A program made the translations under genes and the position numbers. A stretch of DNA of 32,191 nt, from NCBI GenBank assembly GCA_902559815.1, contig CACEJE010000008.1:1-32191 (forward strand), in the 5' to 3' direction. Shown one piece after another: positions 21,801 through 28,379 of the stretch. The notes beneath the pieces are model-generated. The model saw only the letters and a list, made by a program, of their open reading frames with translations. It searched no databases and was not told the origin of the DNA. The first letter of the stretch is position 1. The number at the start of each line of letters is the position of its first letter. This DNA comes from an uncultured Thiothrix sp. (GTDB taxonomy: Bacteria > Pseudomonadota > Gammaproteobacteria > Poriferisulfidales > GCA-002705445).

Positions 21801-22313
21801 CCTTGTAATTTCAATATAATAATTATTTGAAAAATTCTTTTTCCAGTAATTTATTTTTTTTTCAATGAGTTCTTTTTTATTAGACCTTATTGCTTCTGCT
21901 AAATCACCGTGAATTCCTCCTGATAAAACAATTAGTCCATCAGATCTTTCGGCAAGCTGCTCCATTGTGATATAAAAATTATTGTTTACGTCAAGATTTA
22001 CATATGAGTTTGTAATAATATTGCTTAAGTTGATAAACCCATCTCTATTTTTGCATAACAAAACTACCTTATTAAATACTTTATCGTTCAAATCACTTTG
22101 AATGCTTACTTCAATACCTATTATCGGCTTTATGCCATTTTTAATTGAAAGCTTATAAAATTTAACTAAAGAAAATATATTATTAAAATCTGTTATTGCG
22201 ATAGATGGGTATTTATTTGTCACAGCGTGATCAATCAAATCGTTAACTCTTATTAGACTGTCTGATATTGAGTATTCACTGTGTAAATGTAAATGTATAA
22301 AGTTATTTGTCAT
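18882..22313 (-). CDS. dnaE: DNA polymerase III subunit alpha
   Basis: PHP domain FIHLHLHSEYSISDSLIRV, GPGRGSGAGSLVAYVLNITNIDPIKYDLLFERFLNPERVSLPDFDIDFC, VALYRPGPLQSGMVDDFI, FNKSHSVAYALLAYQTAFLK. Confidence 0.99.
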   Translation of the reverse strand: MTNNFIHLHLHSEYSISDSLIRVNDLIDHAVTNKYPSIAITDFNNIFSLVKFYKLSIKNGIKPIIGIEVSIQSDLNDKVFNKVVLLCKNRDGFINLSNIITNSYVNLDVNNNFYITMEQLAERSDGLIVLSGGIHGDLAEAIRSNKKELIEKKINYWKKNFSNNYYIEITRTGKDFEDEYNSHVIELAEKYSLPLVASNDARFLEKKDFQAHEVRVCINDGTYLKDEKRKSNYNKNQYLKSSEEMKELFYDIPSAIENSYEIAKRCNLQLSLGEIAMPIFPLDNGQKENEYFNSLVMQSLKYKLSEKNIVNQEPYTNRIKLEMDVILKMGYAGYFLIVSDFVMWAKKNNIPVGPGRGSGAGSLVAYVLNITNIDPIKYDLLFERFLNPERVSLPDFDIDFCMDKRDSVIDYVSKKYGRDKVSQIITYGTMAAKAVVRDVGRVLQYPYPFVDQIAKLIPFEIGITLKNALEDQELKKLYESDDDVKEIIDMAMILEGLPRNAGTHAGGIVISPKKLINYTPLYKDAHDSSLLTQLDKDDVEEIGLIKFDFLGLRTLTVIENTIKIINQKNSEEFILDNIPLNDSDTFDLLRKQKTNGVFQLESRGLKDIIKRLKPDKFDDLVALVALYRPGPLQSGMVDDFIDRKNGANVEYLHPLIMDVLKPTYGVILYQEQVMKIAQVLAGYSLGSADILRRAMGKKKYEEMQQQREIFVNGALKNNIEKKQAEYIFDLMEKFAGYGFNKSHSVAYALLAYQTAFLKTHYKEPFIAAVLSSDMDNTDKVVKFVKECEYMNINLKAPNINESNYTFDVTNDNEISYGLGAIKGVGSSIIEIIINERNKNGSYNSLDDFLKRCGTTKINKRVIEALIKSGSLDVFQETRSSLYSMYPKSMKLAEQNTKNIQQGQIDIFGFSEKTVNKKNDKNIEEWSNLKKLTYERDVLGFYLSGHPITEFKKELRNIVNNDLLTIKNKFNKNKKGSLYKIAGVINSIRIRTTSTKEKLAQINLGDDTDNIDVIANNNLLNETISRDDIVIIEGMLRMDEYTNRLSFRAKSINSIENARILFSTGIKIKVTDEKDSSILVKKLESFFNSKNDGNCLVRIDYTVDNITKSLVLGENYKISPTNDIITELRDLDCVENLELLYSSV

Positions 22314-22876
22314 AATAGCGATATCGGTTTAAATGTTTTTCTATGATATTTGCATATTCCATATTTTTTTATCATTTCTATATGTTTTTTCGTTGGATAT
22401 CCTTTGTGTTTTTTAAAATCATATTCTGGATATTCTCTATCAATTTCAATCATAATTTTATCCCTTGTTACCTTTGCTACTATTGATGCTGCACTTATAA
22501 TAGGCACCAATCGATCGCCGTGCTTTATTGTAATGCAATTTGCATCAATGTGCGGGGCAAAGAGGCCATCTACGTAAACTTTGCAATCATTGCAATTAAT
22601 AGCATCAAATGACTTCTTCATAGCTTTTAATGTAGCATTATGTATATTTAATTTATCAATTTCATTAGAACTTACTATCCCAACACTATATTTTAAAGCA
22701 TTTTGTAAAATTTCTTCATAAAGTATTTGTCTCATATTCTGACTAATTTGTTTTGAGTCGTTAATTTTTTCAGATAGATATTTTTCTTCTATTATAACTG
22801 AAGCAGCAACAACAGGACCAGCTAATGGCCCCCTTCCTGCCTCATCAATTCCAACAATTGTATATTTTTTTTCCAT
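22310..22876 (-). CDS. rnhB: Ribonuclease HII
   Basis: VGIDEAGRGPLAGPVVAASVI, SAASIVAKVTRDKIM, YPEYDFKKHKGYPTKKH. Confidence 0.98.
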   Translation of the reverse strand: MEKKYTIVGIDEAGRGPLAGPVVAASVIIEEKYLSEKINDSKQISQNMRQILYEEILQNALKYSVGIVSSNEIDKLNIHNATLKAMKKSFDAINCNDCKVYVDGLFAPHIDANCITIKHGDRLVPIISAASIVAKVTRDKIMIEIDREYPEYDFKKHKGYPTKKHIEMIKKYGICKYHRKTFKPISLL

Positions 22877-22941
22877 AAACTAGATTATAATATCTTTAAA
22901 TATCATACATCAGTAAACTAATTTGAAAAATATATTTTATT
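22877..22941. promoter_or_regulatory. 65-bp divergent intergenic region between rnhB and gnnA-like gene; candidate promoter
   Basis: Only divergent gap in this block; contains plus-strand TATAAT at 22886-22891 upstream of the start at 22942; no convincing -35 seen. Confidence 0.35.
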
Positions 22942-23880
22942 ATGAGTAAATTAAGAGTTGCCGTAATTGGAATTGGTTATCTAGGTGAGTTTCATGCTGA
23001 AAAATACAAAAATAATAAAAATGCTGATTTAATTGGCGTAGTTGATACTGACGAAAAAAGATGCCAAAAAATTTCAAAAAAATTTAATACTCAATCCTTT
23101 AATAAATATCAAGATATTATTAATGATGTTGATGCAGTGAGTATTGTGGTCCCAACTAATTTGCATTATAAAATTGCTAAATTTTTCATAGAACATAAAA
23201 AGCACGTATTAATAGAAAAGCCATTTGCAACAAATGTATTACAAGCAAAAAAACTAAGGGACATATCAAAAAAAAATAATACTATTTTGCAAGTAGGTCA
23301 TCTTGAGAGATTTAATAAAGCATTTATAGGACTAAAAGATAAAATAAAAAAACCGCTTTTTATTGAATGCAATAGAATTTCACCATATAAATTAAGAGGA
23401 ACAGAAGTAGACGTAATAAAAGATTTAATGATTCATGATTTAGATCTAATCATTTCGCTTAATAATTCAAGAGTAAAAAATATACAAGCAAATGGGATCA
23501 ACGTACTTACAAACAAAATAGATATTGCAAATGCAAGAATTACCTTTGATAACGGATGTGTTTGTAATTTATCCTCAAGTAGAATTAGCGATAAAGTTGA
23601 AAGAAAGATGCGTGTATTTCAAAAAAATTCTTATTTTTCTTTAGATTTTCAAAAATTTGTTTTAGATTCTTATAAAAAACTAACTATTAATAACAAAAAA
23701 ATTATAAAGAAAGAGCAAATCAAATTTTCAAAAAATGACTCATTAAAAGATGAAATCCAAAGTTTTATCCACTGCATAAATAATAATAAAAAACCAATTG
23801 TAACTTCTTTAGATGGTATAAATGCTTTAGAATATGCTATTAAAATTTCTAAATTAATAAAAAATGATTCCACAATTTGA
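22942..23880 (+). CDS. gnnA: Gfo/Idh/MocA-family NAD-dependent oxidoreductase; probable UDP-GlcNAc 3-dehydrogenase
   Basis: Rossmann VAVIGIGYLGEFHAEKY, EKPFATNV, VGHLERFNKAF, DVIKDLMIHDLDLIISL; overlaps DegT aminotransferase, followed by lpxB, next to lpxA. Confidence 0.75.
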   Translation: MSKLRVAVIGIGYLGEFHAEKYKNNKNADLIGVVDTDEKRCQKISKKFNTQSFNKYQDIINDVDAVSIVVPTNLHYKIAKFFIEHKKHVLIEKPFATNVLQAKKLRDISKKNNTILQVGHLERFNKAFIGLKDKIKKPLFIECNRISPYKLRGTEVDVIKDLMIHDLDLIISLNNSRVKNIQANGINVLTNKIDIANARITFDNGCVCNLSSSRISDKVERKMRVFQKNSYFSLDFQKFVLDSYKKLTINNKKIIKKEQIKFSKNDSLKDEIQSFIHCINNNKKPIVTSLDGINALEYAIKISKLIKNDSTI

Positions 23881-24958
23881 CTTAAAAAAAGAATATTCTT
23901 TATTAGAGAATAAAATACAAGCTGAAATTAGAAAAGTATTTTCTAAAACAAATTTCATTCAAGGAGAAAATGTTAAGAAGTTTGAAGAAAAAGTTGCCAA
24001 TTATATTGGAGTCAAATATGCAATCTCTTGTAATTCAGGTACTGATGCCTTACATTTTGCATTAAGATCCCTAAATATAGGTAAGGGCGATGAAGTTATA
24101 ACTACGCCATTTACCTTTATCTCAACAATTGAAGCAATTATGTATCTAGGAGCAAAGCCTGTCTTTGCGGATATTAATAAAAGAACATACAACATAAGTA
24201 AATCAGAAATACTGAAAAAAATTACATCGAATACAAAAGCAATAATACCCGTTCATCTTTTTGGAAACCCATTTGATGTTGAGGATTTAAAAAAAGATAT
24301 CGATAATAACTTTATAAATATTATTGAAGATTGTGCTCAAAGCTTTGGTGCTGGAATCAATCATAAAAGAACTGGTAGTTTAGGTGATATTGGATGTTTT
24401 AGCTTTTATCCCACAAAAAATCTTGGGTGTTATGGTGACGGAGGAATAATCACAACAAATTCTGAAGCAATATATAAACATATTAAAAAGTTAACAAATC
24501 ACGGAAGCTCAAAAAGATATCATCATGATATTATTGGTTTTAATAGCAGACTTGATGAAATTCAAGCTGCAATTTTAAATATTAAACTAAAGTTAATTGA
24601 TGAAACAAATATGATGAGAGTAAATATAGCAAATATATATAACGAAAATTTGTCCGAAGTAAAAAATCTTACGTTACCTTATAAAGAAAATAATACACAT
24701 CACGTTTATCATCAATATACAATTTCTTCATTAGATAGAGATATAATAAAAAAAACATTAGAAAAAAATAATATTGGTTCTGCTGTTTATTACCCAATTT
24801 CTTTAGAAAAACAGAATGCATATAAATACTTTTTTAAGGATACAGCAAATTATAAAAATTCAAATTTTATATCCAATACTTGCCTCTCATTGCCAATGTA
24901 TCCATATCTTAGTGAAAGTGATGTTTTAAGCGTCTGTAATACTATTAAAAATATATAA
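23864..24958 (+). CDS. gnnB: DegT/DnrJ/EryC1-family PLP aminotransferase; probable UDP-3-keto-GlcNAc aminotransferase
   Basis: CNSGTDALHFALRSLNIGKGDEVITTPFTFISTIEAI, IEDCAQSFGA, FSFYPTKNLGCYGDGGIITT (PLP lysine), GFNSRLDEIQAAIL; 17-bp overlap with upstream gene. Confidence 0.75.
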   Translation: MIPQFDLKKEYSLLENKIQAEIRKVFSKTNFIQGENVKKFEEKVANYIGVKYAISCNSGTDALHFALRSLNIGKGDEVITTPFTFISTIEAIMYLGAKPVFADINKRTYNISKSEILKKITSNTKAIIPVHLFGNPFDVEDLKKDIDNNFINIIEDCAQSFGAGINHKRTGSLGDIGCFSFYPTKNLGCYGDGGIITTNSEAIYKHIKKLTNHGSSKRYHHDIIGFNSRLDEIQAAILNIKLKLIDETNMMRVNIANIYNENLSEVKNLTLPYKENNTHHVYHQYTISSLDRDIIKKTLEKNNIGSAVYYPISLEKQNAYKYFFKDTANYKNSNFISNTCLSLPMYPYLSESDVLSVCNTIKNI

Positions 24959-26070
24959 TGAATAAACTAAAAAATATAATAATTTCTGCGGGTGAAGAGT
25001 CTGGAGACATGTATGGTGCAAATATAATAAATTACTTCTCTAAAAATAAAAATATACATTTTTATGCTATGGGATCAAACAAAATTAAGAACACTAGCGC
25101 GGAAATTATTATAGATTCATCAGATTTGTCAGTCGTAGGTTTTTTAGAAGTTATAAAAATATATCCAAAATTATTAAGATCATTAAATATAATGAAAAAA
25201 TCTATTGATAGTATAAAACCTGATTTAATAATATTAATAGATTATCAAGAATTTAATATGAAGTTAGCTAAATATGCAAAATCTAGAGGTGTTAAAGTTT
25301 TATTTTATATTAGTCCTCAAATTTGGGCTTGGAGAGAAAGTAGAGTTAAAAATATCATAAATAATATTGACATTATGGCCGTGATTTTTCCTTTTGAAAA
25401 AAAATATTATGATCAATTAGGTTTGGAGACACATTACGTAGGGCATCCATTAGTTGAGTCAAAAAATTATAAAGAGGATAATTATAAGAAAGATAATTAC
25501 ATTGGTTTTTTCCCCGGAAGTAGAATTAACGAGGTAAGAAAACACTTGCCTATTATGAAAAAAATTATAAGTAAAATCTCTAAAAAATATCCAGATGAAA
25601 AGTTTTTAATATCTAAATCCTCAAATATTGACATACAATTATACGAAAATTTTTTTATGAATGAAACAAATATAAAAATTGTTGAGAATGAAAATATTTA
25701 TAAAACCATAAGTTTATGTAAATCTGCAATTGCTGCTTCTGGAACAATAACTTTACAAATTGGATTAATGAAAATTCCAGTTTGTGTTTTATATAAACTA
25801 TCAAGCCTAACGTATTATTTTGCTAAATTACTAGTAAAGACAAAATATATATCATTAATAAATATTGTATTACAAAAATTTCTAGTTAAAGAATATATTC
25901 AAGATAATGCATCAGCTGATAATATTTGCATTGAACTAGAAAAACTGACTTTTGATCAAAATTATAGGAATAATATTATAAAAGAGTATGGTGCTTTGGA
26001 AGAAAAATTATTAAATGATAATTTAAAAACTAATATTAATAATTTAATAACGAAAATTTTAAAAATATAA
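24958..26070 (+). CDS. lpxB: Lipid A disaccharide synthase
   Basis: ISAGEESGDMYGANII, FYISPQIWAWRESRVKNI, VGHPLVES, GFFPGSRINEVRKHLPIM; TAATG overlap with preceding gene. Confidence 0.96.
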   Translation: MNKLKNIIISAGEESGDMYGANIINYFSKNKNIHFYAMGSNKIKNTSAEIIIDSSDLSVVGFLEVIKIYPKLLRSLNIMKKSIDSIKPDLIILIDYQEFNMKLAKYAKSRGVKVLFYISPQIWAWRESRVKNIINNIDIMAVIFPFEKKYYDQLGLETHYVGHPLVESKNYKEDNYKKDNYIGFFPGSRINEVRKHLPIMKKIISKISKKYPDEKFLISKSSNIDIQLYENFFMNETNIKIVENENIYKTISLCKSAIAASGTITLQIGLMKIPVCVLYKLSSLTYYFAKLLVKTKYISLINIVLQKFLVKEYIQDNASADNICIELEKLTFDQNYRNNIIKEYGALEEKLLNDNLKTNINNLITKILKI

Positions 26071-26078
26071 CTATTCTT

Positions 26079-26912
26079 CTATTCTTGTTTTGATGACTGA
26101 ATAACTCCCCTATCACTTTTCTCTATAAAATTTAATAGTTTTGATACTTCTTCATATTCTTGACAAAGTATATCTAATTCGTTTGTATTTGTAGGGTTAT
26201 TACTTGACCTAAATATTAGCTTATATGCTTTATGTAAAGCATTTATTTTTTTTTGATCAAAATTATTTCTTCTTAAACCTTCTCGATTTAACCCATGAGT
26301 TTTAGCGAAACTCCCTGTAGCTAAAAGATAAGGAGGCAGATCTTGATTTAATGCTGCACCCATTCCAGCAAAAGCGAAATCTCCAATTCTGCAAAACTGG
26401 TGCACTAATACATATCCTGCTAAAACTATATTATTACCCATTATAACGTGACCAGCTAATGAAGTTGAATTTGACATTACATTATTATTTCCGACAATAC
26501 AGTCATGAGCTATATGCACATAAGCCATTATCCAATTATTATCCCCTACTCTTGTTTCTGACTTCCCGCCAGCTTTAGTTCCACGATTTATTGTGCAATA
26601 TTCCCGAATTGTATTTCCAGAGCCAATAATTAATCTGCAATCCTCACCTTCATATTTTTTATCTTGTGGAATTTCTGCAATCGAAGCAAATTGATAAATT
26701 TTATTTTCTTTACCAATATCACAATTACCTGATATAACAACGTGAGGACCGATTATTGTATTTGAATCTATAGAAACATTTTCACCAATAATTGAGTAAG
26801 CGCCAATTTCAACAGAAGAATCGATTTTTGAAGAAGGGTGAATTATTGCTGTTGGATGAATTTTTGACAAGATATTTAACCTATGTTTTTTTTGGTAGTT
26901 CTTTAAAACCAC
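26079..26912 (-). CDS. lpxA: UDP-GlcNAc (or UDP-GlcNAc3N) acyltransferase
   Basis: Left-handed beta-helix hexapeptides, KIHPTAIIHPSSKID, IYQFASIAEIPQDKKYEGE, VHIAHDCIVGNN (catalytic His), LVHQFCRIGDFAFAGMG. Likely true start is TTG at 26870 rather than ATG at 26912. Confidence 0.96.
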   Translation of the reverse strand: MVLKNYQKKHRLNILSKIHPTAIIHPSSKIDSSVEIGAYSIIGENVSIDSNTIIGPHVVISGNCDIGKENKIYQFASIAEIPQDKKYEGEDCRLIIGSGNTIREYCTINRGTKAGGKSETRVGDNNWIMAYVHIAHDCIVGNNNVMSNSTSLAGHVIMGNNIVLAGYVLVHQFCRIGDFAFAGMGAALNQDLPPYLLATGSFAKTHGLNREGLRRNNFDQKKINALHKAYKLIFRSSNNPTNTNELDILCQEYEEVSKLLNFIEKSDRGVIQSSKQE

Positions 26913-27339
26913 ACATTAATTCAGCTGAAGCAGCTACATCATTTCCTACAGTAGCTACCGCATCAAAGATAGCAAAACCTTGTTTGCTTTTCGTCATCTC
27001 TACAGTTAATTTAAGTTGATCTCCTGGCTCAACTGGTTTCTTAAACCTTGCCTTATCTATACCAACAAATAAATATAAACTTTCATTCGGTGGGCATAAT
27101 TTTGGAGTTTTAAAAACTAATAATCCAGAAGCTTGAGCAAGCGCCTCTAATATTAATACGCCTGGCATAACTGGATAATTTGGAAAATGACCATTAAAAT
27201 ATGGCTCATTAAAACTTACATTTTTTATTGCCAGTATTTTTTTTCCTTCTTCAAAATCTATAATTTTGTCAACTAACAAAAAAGGATACCTGTGTGGCAA
27301 AAGATTCATTACTTCGTATATATCACCTTTCATATTCAA
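26881..27339 (-). CDS. fabZ: 3-hydroxyacyl-ACP dehydratase
   Basis: LLPHRYPFLLVDKII, GHFPNYPVMPGVLILEALAQASG. Confidence 0.98.
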   Translation of the reverse strand: MNMKGDIYEVMNLLPHRYPFLLVDKIIDFEEGKKILAIKNVSFNEPYFNGHFPNYPVMPGVLILEALAQASGLLVFKTPKLCPPNESLYLFVGIDKARFKKPVEPGDQLKLTVEMTKSKQGFAIFDAVATVGNDVAASAELMCGFKELPKKT

Positions 27340-27371: not shown

Positions 27372-28379
27372 TTATTTTGATTTATTTTTTTCTTTAAATT
27401 TTACAAACAACTCATTTAAATTTTTAAATCTTACAGCATTCCTTAACCATTTTTTGTTATGCATTAAAGGAGTTCCAGATGTGTATATTCCAGCCTCTTT
27501 AATATTACTAGAAACTTTTGTCATGCCAGTGATTTGTGTATTATCACAAATCTCGATGTGGCCTTGAATACCTGCACCGCCGCCAATCATGCAATTTTTT
27601 CCAATTTTTGCACTTCCTGCGATTCCAACGCATCCTGCTATTGCAGTATTGTTACCAATTTTTACATTATGTGCAATCTGAACCTGATTGTCTATTTTAA
27701 CCCCATCTCCAATTAAGGTATTATCCAATGTACCTCGATCTATAGAAGTATTTGATCCAATTTCTACATTGTTCCCAATCCTAACGCTTCCTACCTGCGG
27801 AATCTTCACCCAATTATTTTTTTCAAGTGCGTAACCAAAACCATCTGAACCTATAACTGTCCCAGAATGAACTATTATATTATCTCCAATTTCTACATCT
27901 TTATATATTGTCACATTTGCATATATGGTTGCATTTTTACCAATTTTAACGTTATTTCCAATATAACTGTTTGCACCTACATAACCGTCATCACCTAAAA
28001 TTACATTTTTACCAATAACAACATTTGGTTCTATATGTAATTTTTTGCTTAATGGATTTGTGTAAGTTATAACAGAATCATGAACTTCATAGTCATTTTT
28101 TAAATTTTTGTTGAAAATTTGTGATATTTTTGCAAATAATAAATATGGATTATCAGTTATTAAAATATTATTTTTACAAAACTTAGAGAGATTTTTTGTA
28201 GTTATAACTACTCTTGCTTTCGACTTATCCAATGACTTTAAAAACTTTTTTTCCGATAAAAAAACAATACTATTCTCATTTGCATTTTCTATACTAGATA
28301 CATTTTCTATAGAATAGTTTTTATCACCTTTGTATTCTACTTCAAATAATTCAGATATTTTTTCTAATGTATAATTCAC
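27372..28379 (-). CDS. lpxD: UDP-3-O-(3-hydroxyacyl)glucosamine N-acyltransferase
   Basis: N-terminal LpxD domain, hexapeptide repeats, [35 protein letters not shown]. Confidence 0.97.

Follow-up and report, generated by a model that had tools for sequence, protein, structure and literature searches.

The lipid A locus of an uncultured Thiothrix sp. raises the question of what kind of lipid A is built when the position usually held by lpxB is taken by three genes that run the other way, two of which resemble amino sugar enzymes. The window, i.e. the whole stretch of 32,191 nucleotides that was analysed, comes from a small, AT-rich gammaproteobacterium whose genome assembly is 0.91 Mb in 34 contigs and approximately 80% complete. 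Between rnhB (22310-22876, minus strand) and lpxA (26079-26870, minus strand) lie gnnA (22942-23880; 312 aa), gnnB (23864-24958; 364 aa) and lpxB (24958-26070; 370 aa), all on the plus strand and each with an ATG start. The open reading frames of gnnA and gnnB overlap by 17 bases and those of gnnB and lpxB share one base. The coordinates given in the preliminary description for the three overlapping genes between lpxA and rnhB are exact. The most plausible start of lpxA is a TTG at 26870, and its stop and that of the convergent lpxB are 8 bases apart. Beyond lpxA, at higher coordinates and likewise on the minus strand, lie fabZ (26881-27339) in its canonical context, lpxD (27372-28379; the second acyltransferase of the pathway, identified by open reading frame and family search), skp, bamA and rseP; on the other edge of the block, beyond rnhB, also in canonical context, lie dnaE, accA, tilS and pyrG. 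In E. coli K-12, the order is bamA-skp-lpxD-fabZ-lpxA-lpxB-rnhB-dnaE on one strand throughout, in agreement with the lpxA-lpxB-rnhB order that had been taken as usual. The canonical lpxB slot of the window is occupied by the reverse-oriented gnnA-gnnB-lpxB.

The 65 bases between the divergent rnhB and gnnA (22877-22941) are the likely promoter site of the block; promoter and terminator scans returned sites no more numerous than in shuffled sequence. GC and AT skew shift across positions 22001-26000, as expected from the placement of the block genes on the opposite strand.

The identity of the first two genes is the basis for any prediction of lipid A chemistry. GnnA belongs to the Gfo/Idh/MocA family (PF01408) and contains the EKP and DLMIHD motifs, the latter within DLMIHDxD, as for a UDP-GlcNAc 3-dehydrogenase. 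GnnB belongs to the DegT/DnrJ/EryC1/StrS family (PF01041, E 6e-115) of PLP-dependent aminotransferases, with the PLP lysine in FSFYPTKNLG, and would act at position 3. Matches of LpxB (TIGR00215) and LpxA (NF003657/TIGR01852) both exceed the curated cut-offs. No GnnA or GnnB equivalog in NCBIfam scored above its cut-off, with the archaeal UDP-GlcNAc 3-dehydrogenase model reaching 219 of the required 450 bits. Among solved structures, a profile built from twelve GnnAs gave 355 bits for 7bvj, which we take to be the GnnA of Acidithiobacillus ferrooxidans and to which the window GnnA is 33% identical; the runner-up scored 134 bits, and 3q2i and 3q2k, presumably both WlbA, scored 60 and 53. The best solved relatives of GnnB are 7b0d, QdtB and WbpE. 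In the GnnB tree, where A. ferrooxidans GnnB is represented by that of genome G045 (its GnnA is 57% identical to 7bvj), the window GnnB falls inside a 26-row clade of gnnA-adjacent GnnBs (SH-aLRT 96), with WbpE outside the clade and QdtB and 7b0d on another branch.

Both families also serve O-antigen sugar pathways, as the relatives WlbA and WbpE illustrate, and the two enzymes could in principle supply O-antigen, capsule or some other glycan with an amino sugar while standing next to lpxB by accident. This is very improbable given that the reading frames of gnnA, gnnB and lpxB overlap, that no sugar dehydrogenase or acetyltransferase partner adjoins the block, and that linkage of gnnA and gnnB to lpxA or lpxB recurs across several phyla and in lineages as distant as Geobacter, Limnohabitans, Methylococcaceae, Thioalkalivibrio, Legionella and others. 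An O-antigen role through grouping with the WlbA/WbpE or WlbE families, the outcome that would have spoken against the preliminary description, was rejected by the profile scores for GnnA and by the tree for GnnB, which place them apart from WlbA, WbpE and QdtB. The earlier assignment of GnnA and GnnB as enzymes of lipid A GlcN3N synthesis is upheld by the 355-bit match and by the position of GnnB among its gnnA-adjacent counterparts, and we consider it highly probable from these relationships that the block supplies UDP-GlcNAc3N for lipid A.

The third gene indicates how the block may have come to lie in reverse. In a tree of 43 LpxB sequences, an E. coli-type lineage (100/100) is separate from the gnnA-linked LpxBs, and the LpxBs of the window, Thioalkalivibrio, Methylococcaceae, Legionella and Geobacter form one group (100/97). 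With an LpxB from a separate, gnnA-tied lineage, gnnA-gnnB-lpxB behaves like a cassette, and the simplest reading of the tree is that such a unit likely replaced the native lpxB, which would also account for the opposite direction of the block. A constrained tree with the window LpxB placed inside the E. coli-type lineage was only marginally rejected (AU p 0.051), and the replacement is therefore likely rather than proven. The tie between LpxB lineage and gnnA is not absolute, since two gnnA-linked loci, in Limnohabitans (L128) and in genome G047, retain an E. coli-type LpxB. In a member of the Ectothiorhodospiraceae (L103, 8231-13739), the native order lpxA-lpxB-rnhB is undisturbed, and rnhB and dnaE are separated by a second lpxA-gnnA-gnnB. 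No description of an LpxB lineage tied to the cassette was found in the open-access papers searched, and its separateness leads to a testable question, namely whether 3-amino and 3-oxy substrates are told apart by LpxB.

The block is conserved among close relatives. In seven of the ten genus mates, a gnnA of 62-71% identity is present in the order rnhB (minus), gnnA (plus), gnnB, lpxB, and the recurrence of this block divergent to rnhB argues against a chance arrangement. Order mates of family f2 likewise have gnnA-gnnB-lpxB divergent from rnhB, so the survey of related genomes that had been proposed finds the block in the genus, in the order and in further lineages. In the remaining genus mates (G002, G009 and G010) and a family mate (G011), gnnA, LpxA1 (the ordinary-type LpxA encoded in the window), lpxB and rnhB are all absent and LpxC is present. 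Loss of the block in these four genomes was considered and rejected, as rnhB and lpxB go missing together with gnnA, which indicates an assembly gap. In the order mate G014 (L166, 6168-8148), lpxB and rnhB are divergent and both gnnA and gnnB are missing, which suggests that the cassette is able to lose its first two genes; a search for LpxA in this genome (95% complete) found none.

Beyond the order, a scan of named genomes yielded 80 loci, annotated by tblastn, in four arrangements. These are lpxA-gnnA-gnnB-lpxB on one strand (Geobacter, Limnohabitans); the inverted gnnA-gnnB-lpxB between rnhB and lpxA, as in the window, Thioalkalivibrio (L126), Halothiobacillaceae (L152), L095 and L162; gnnA-lpxB with gnnB not adjacent (Legionella, where it is divergent from rnhB, and many Desulfobacterota and Nitrospirota); and gnnA/gnnB adjoining a different LpxA (L130, L133, L145, L149). 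Loci with gnnA directly 5' of lpxB and no adjoining gnnB include L009, L012, L016, L024, L087, L107, L121, L124, L132, L135, L148 and others, and are seen in Legionella, Desulfobacterota, Nitrospirota and some gammaproteobacteria. Many of them have a gap of approximately 0.8 kb between lpxA and gnnA, a size that would presumably fit lpxI.

Within the class, 281 gammaproteobacterial genomes, nearly all at least 95% complete, were sampled, and GnnA was detected in 98 of them at a threshold of >330 bits. The lipid A of Legionella pneumophila, also a gammaproteobacterium, has been shown chemically to have a GlcN3N disaccharide backbone, and L. israelensis and L. bozemanae have a mixed GlcN3N/GlcN backbone (PMC7867332). 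The view that this chemistry is unusual for gammaproteobacteria is thus not supported in that form; with related inverted blocks elsewhere, including in Legionella, whose lipid A contains GlcN3N, it is of a known kind.

Which acyltransferase would use the amino sugar is a separate matter, and it was here that the preliminary description, in having the window LpxA N-acylate UDP-GlcNAc3N, was not supported as it stood. A second gene, LpxA2, is encoded on contig C6 (L061: 7877-8638, minus strand); its product is 39% identical to the window LpxA, scores above the PF13720 cut-off and retains residues H122, H125, H160 and Q161. In the genus, as well as in G011 and the order mates, the locus is flanked by ligA and yaaA, and this fixed position across the order indicates that LpxA2 is neither contamination nor a recent acquisition. 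The best solved relative of LpxA2 is the Leptospira interrogans LpxA (3hsq), an enzyme reportedly selective for UDP-GlcNAc3N, whereas LpxA1 matches Pseudomonas and other ordinary enzymes best. In the LpxA tree, the LpxA2s and L. interrogans stand on one side of a branch (100/98), although an AU test did not reject a placement of L. interrogans on the LpxA1 side (p 0.34) and the sequence with which its LpxA shares most identity (48%) belongs to that side. The window LpxA1 falls not with L. interrogans but within the ordinary gammaproteobacterial LpxAs of E. coli/Pseudomonas type, alongside enzymes of gnnA-less genomes, and at positions 65, 77, 84 and 200 (E. coli numbering), the four that separate LpxA2 from the LpxAs of gnnA-less genomes, it carries the ordinary residue throughout. 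L. interrogans LpxA has the LpxA2 residue at 77 (F) and 200 (V). A single-residue marker of GlcNAc3N use was sought and rejected, as only these four positions discriminate and B. fragilis is an exception at position 200. With Q73, H122, H125, H160, Q161, N198 and R204 common to both types as well, residues alone cannot decide the substrate of an LpxA.

The association of a second LpxA with gnnA extends across the class. At least two LpxA matches were found in 38 of the 281 genomes, and GnnA is present in 37 of these versus 61 of the remaining 243 (Fisher 2e-18). The count by family is safer, since genomes share ancestry, and gives GnnA in 26 of 27 two-LpxA families versus 34 of 129 (Fisher 5e-12). 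GnnA is also present in every one of the 24 genomes, from 17 families, that carry an LpxA2-type gene (>300 bits). The exception among the 38 genomes with at least two LpxA matches is G159, where the GnnA score reaches only 143 bits. Further, LpxA2 adjoins gnnA and/or gnnB at L130, L133, L145, L079, G131, G076 and G061, and lies at most 0.9 kb away at L149. At L079 (7648-11453; genome G047), the genes form a tandem lpxA1-gnnA-lpxA2-lpxB, with gnnB not adjacent. In the open-access papers searched, no description was found of such an association of gnnA with a second LpxA across the class.

An LpxA2 serving the choice of acyl chain (for example, with temperature) and not of sugar, with GnnA and GnnB still feeding lipid A, would also account for two enzymes in one genome, and is how the authors tentatively read the two LpxAs of Psychrobacter (PMC4557000) and S. 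copri (PMC12643348), where the two homologs are not reported together with gnnA. We regard this as improbable here, because acyl-chain choice predicts neither the near confinement of two-LpxA genomes to gnnA genomes nor the position of LpxA2 beside gnnA or gnnB at several loci.

A division of sugars between the two LpxAs is the reading that we favour, at a probability of roughly 55%: the GlcN3N cassette together with two LpxAs would lead to a mixed GlcN/GlcN3N backbone. The genome carries gnnA, gnnB and two LpxA genes, and encodes LpxC, LpxK and one LpxL/M-type acyltransferase in addition to the LpxD of the window. As predicted from family membership and known chemistry, GnnA would oxidise the 3-OH of UDP-GlcNAc and GnnB would transaminate the product to UDP-GlcNAc3N. 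The ordinary-type LpxA1 would then O-acylate UDP-GlcNAc and the Leptospira-like LpxA2 would N-acylate UDP-GlcNAc3N, and the only LpxC detected, followed by LpxD, would process both products. Finally, the cassette LpxB would join them into a mixed backbone with amide and ester chains at 3 and 3'. There is a proven precedent in Capnocytophaga canimorsus, where gnnA and gnnB are accompanied by two lpxA genes and the lipid A is a GlcN3N'-GlcN hybrid (PMC3342949).

The preliminary description had gone further, with amides in place of all the 3-O ester-linked chains. This does not follow from the presence of the block, and the second LpxA points rather to a mixed lipid A. In an all-amide lipid A, LpxA1 or both LpxAs would N-acylate UDP-GlcNAc3N and the backbone would be GlcN3N-GlcN3N, as in most Legionella and in A. 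ferrooxidans. The identity of GnnA and GnnB is compatible with this outcome, as is the GlcN3N disaccharide of L. pneumophila (PMC7867332), the genus Legionella sharing the rnhB-divergent gnnA-lpxB. In addition, 61 gnnA genomes in the sample of 281 have a single LpxA match, and with no other LpxA match there, an LpxA1-type enzyme must serve. C. jejuni, reported in a study cited in PMC3342949 to have a hybrid backbone, has an LpxA that falls with LpxA1 in our analysis, which implies that an LpxA1-type enzyme can use UDP-GlcNAc3N. Nevertheless, the second LpxA is retained across the order and the window LpxA1 resembles gnnA-less LpxAs at positions 65, 77, 84 and 200, so an all-amide lipid A seems rather unlikely. 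A genome with a Leptospira-like LpxA2 and an ordinary LpxA in the window makes the mixed backbone at least as likely as the all-amide one.

A broader scenario is put forward tentatively, at somewhat less than even odds. A mobile gnnA-(gnnB)-lpxB cassette, with its own LpxB lineage suited to 3-amino substrates, may have displaced the native lpxB between lpxA and rnhB, and in many gammaproteobacteria may have been paired with a dedicated Leptospira-like LpxA2; the two LpxAs would split UDP-GlcNAc and UDP-GlcNAc3N between them and yield a mixed lipid A that is position-specific, even where the genome is only approximately 1 Mb. The strong association of a second LpxA with gnnA provides a simple genomic marker for a lipid A that is probably mixed GlcN/GlcN3N. 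Amides at position 3 alter how chemically stable lipid A is and how it is met by immune receptors and esterases, and the LpxA1 and LpxA2 of one genome are an enzyme pair for direct comparison of sugar selectivity.

Several known systems resemble parts of this one. GnnA and GnnB have reportedly been described from A. ferrooxidans, whose lpx cluster, like the window, has an oxidoreductase and a transaminase inside the lipid A genes and whose GnnA is the nearest solved structure. In the Thiothrix sp., by comparison, GnnA is only 33% identical, the block is inverted, LpxB comes from the cassette lineage and the genome holds another LpxA. The L. interrogans LpxA (3hsq) is like LpxA2 as its best solved relative, with V at 200 and F at 77, but is distant from the LpxA2s, at a tree path of more than two changes per column. 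Legionella shares gnnA divergent from rnhB and followed by an LpxB of the cassette lineage, and unlike in the window gnnB does not adjoin gnnA in the Legionella loci annotated. In gene content, C. canimorsus resembles this genome, with gnnA, gnnB and two LpxA genes (lpxA and lpxA'; PMC3342949). It differs in being a member of the Bacteroidota with another gene order, and its hybrid structure has been proven chemically, whereas that of the Thiothrix sp. is a prediction from its genes.
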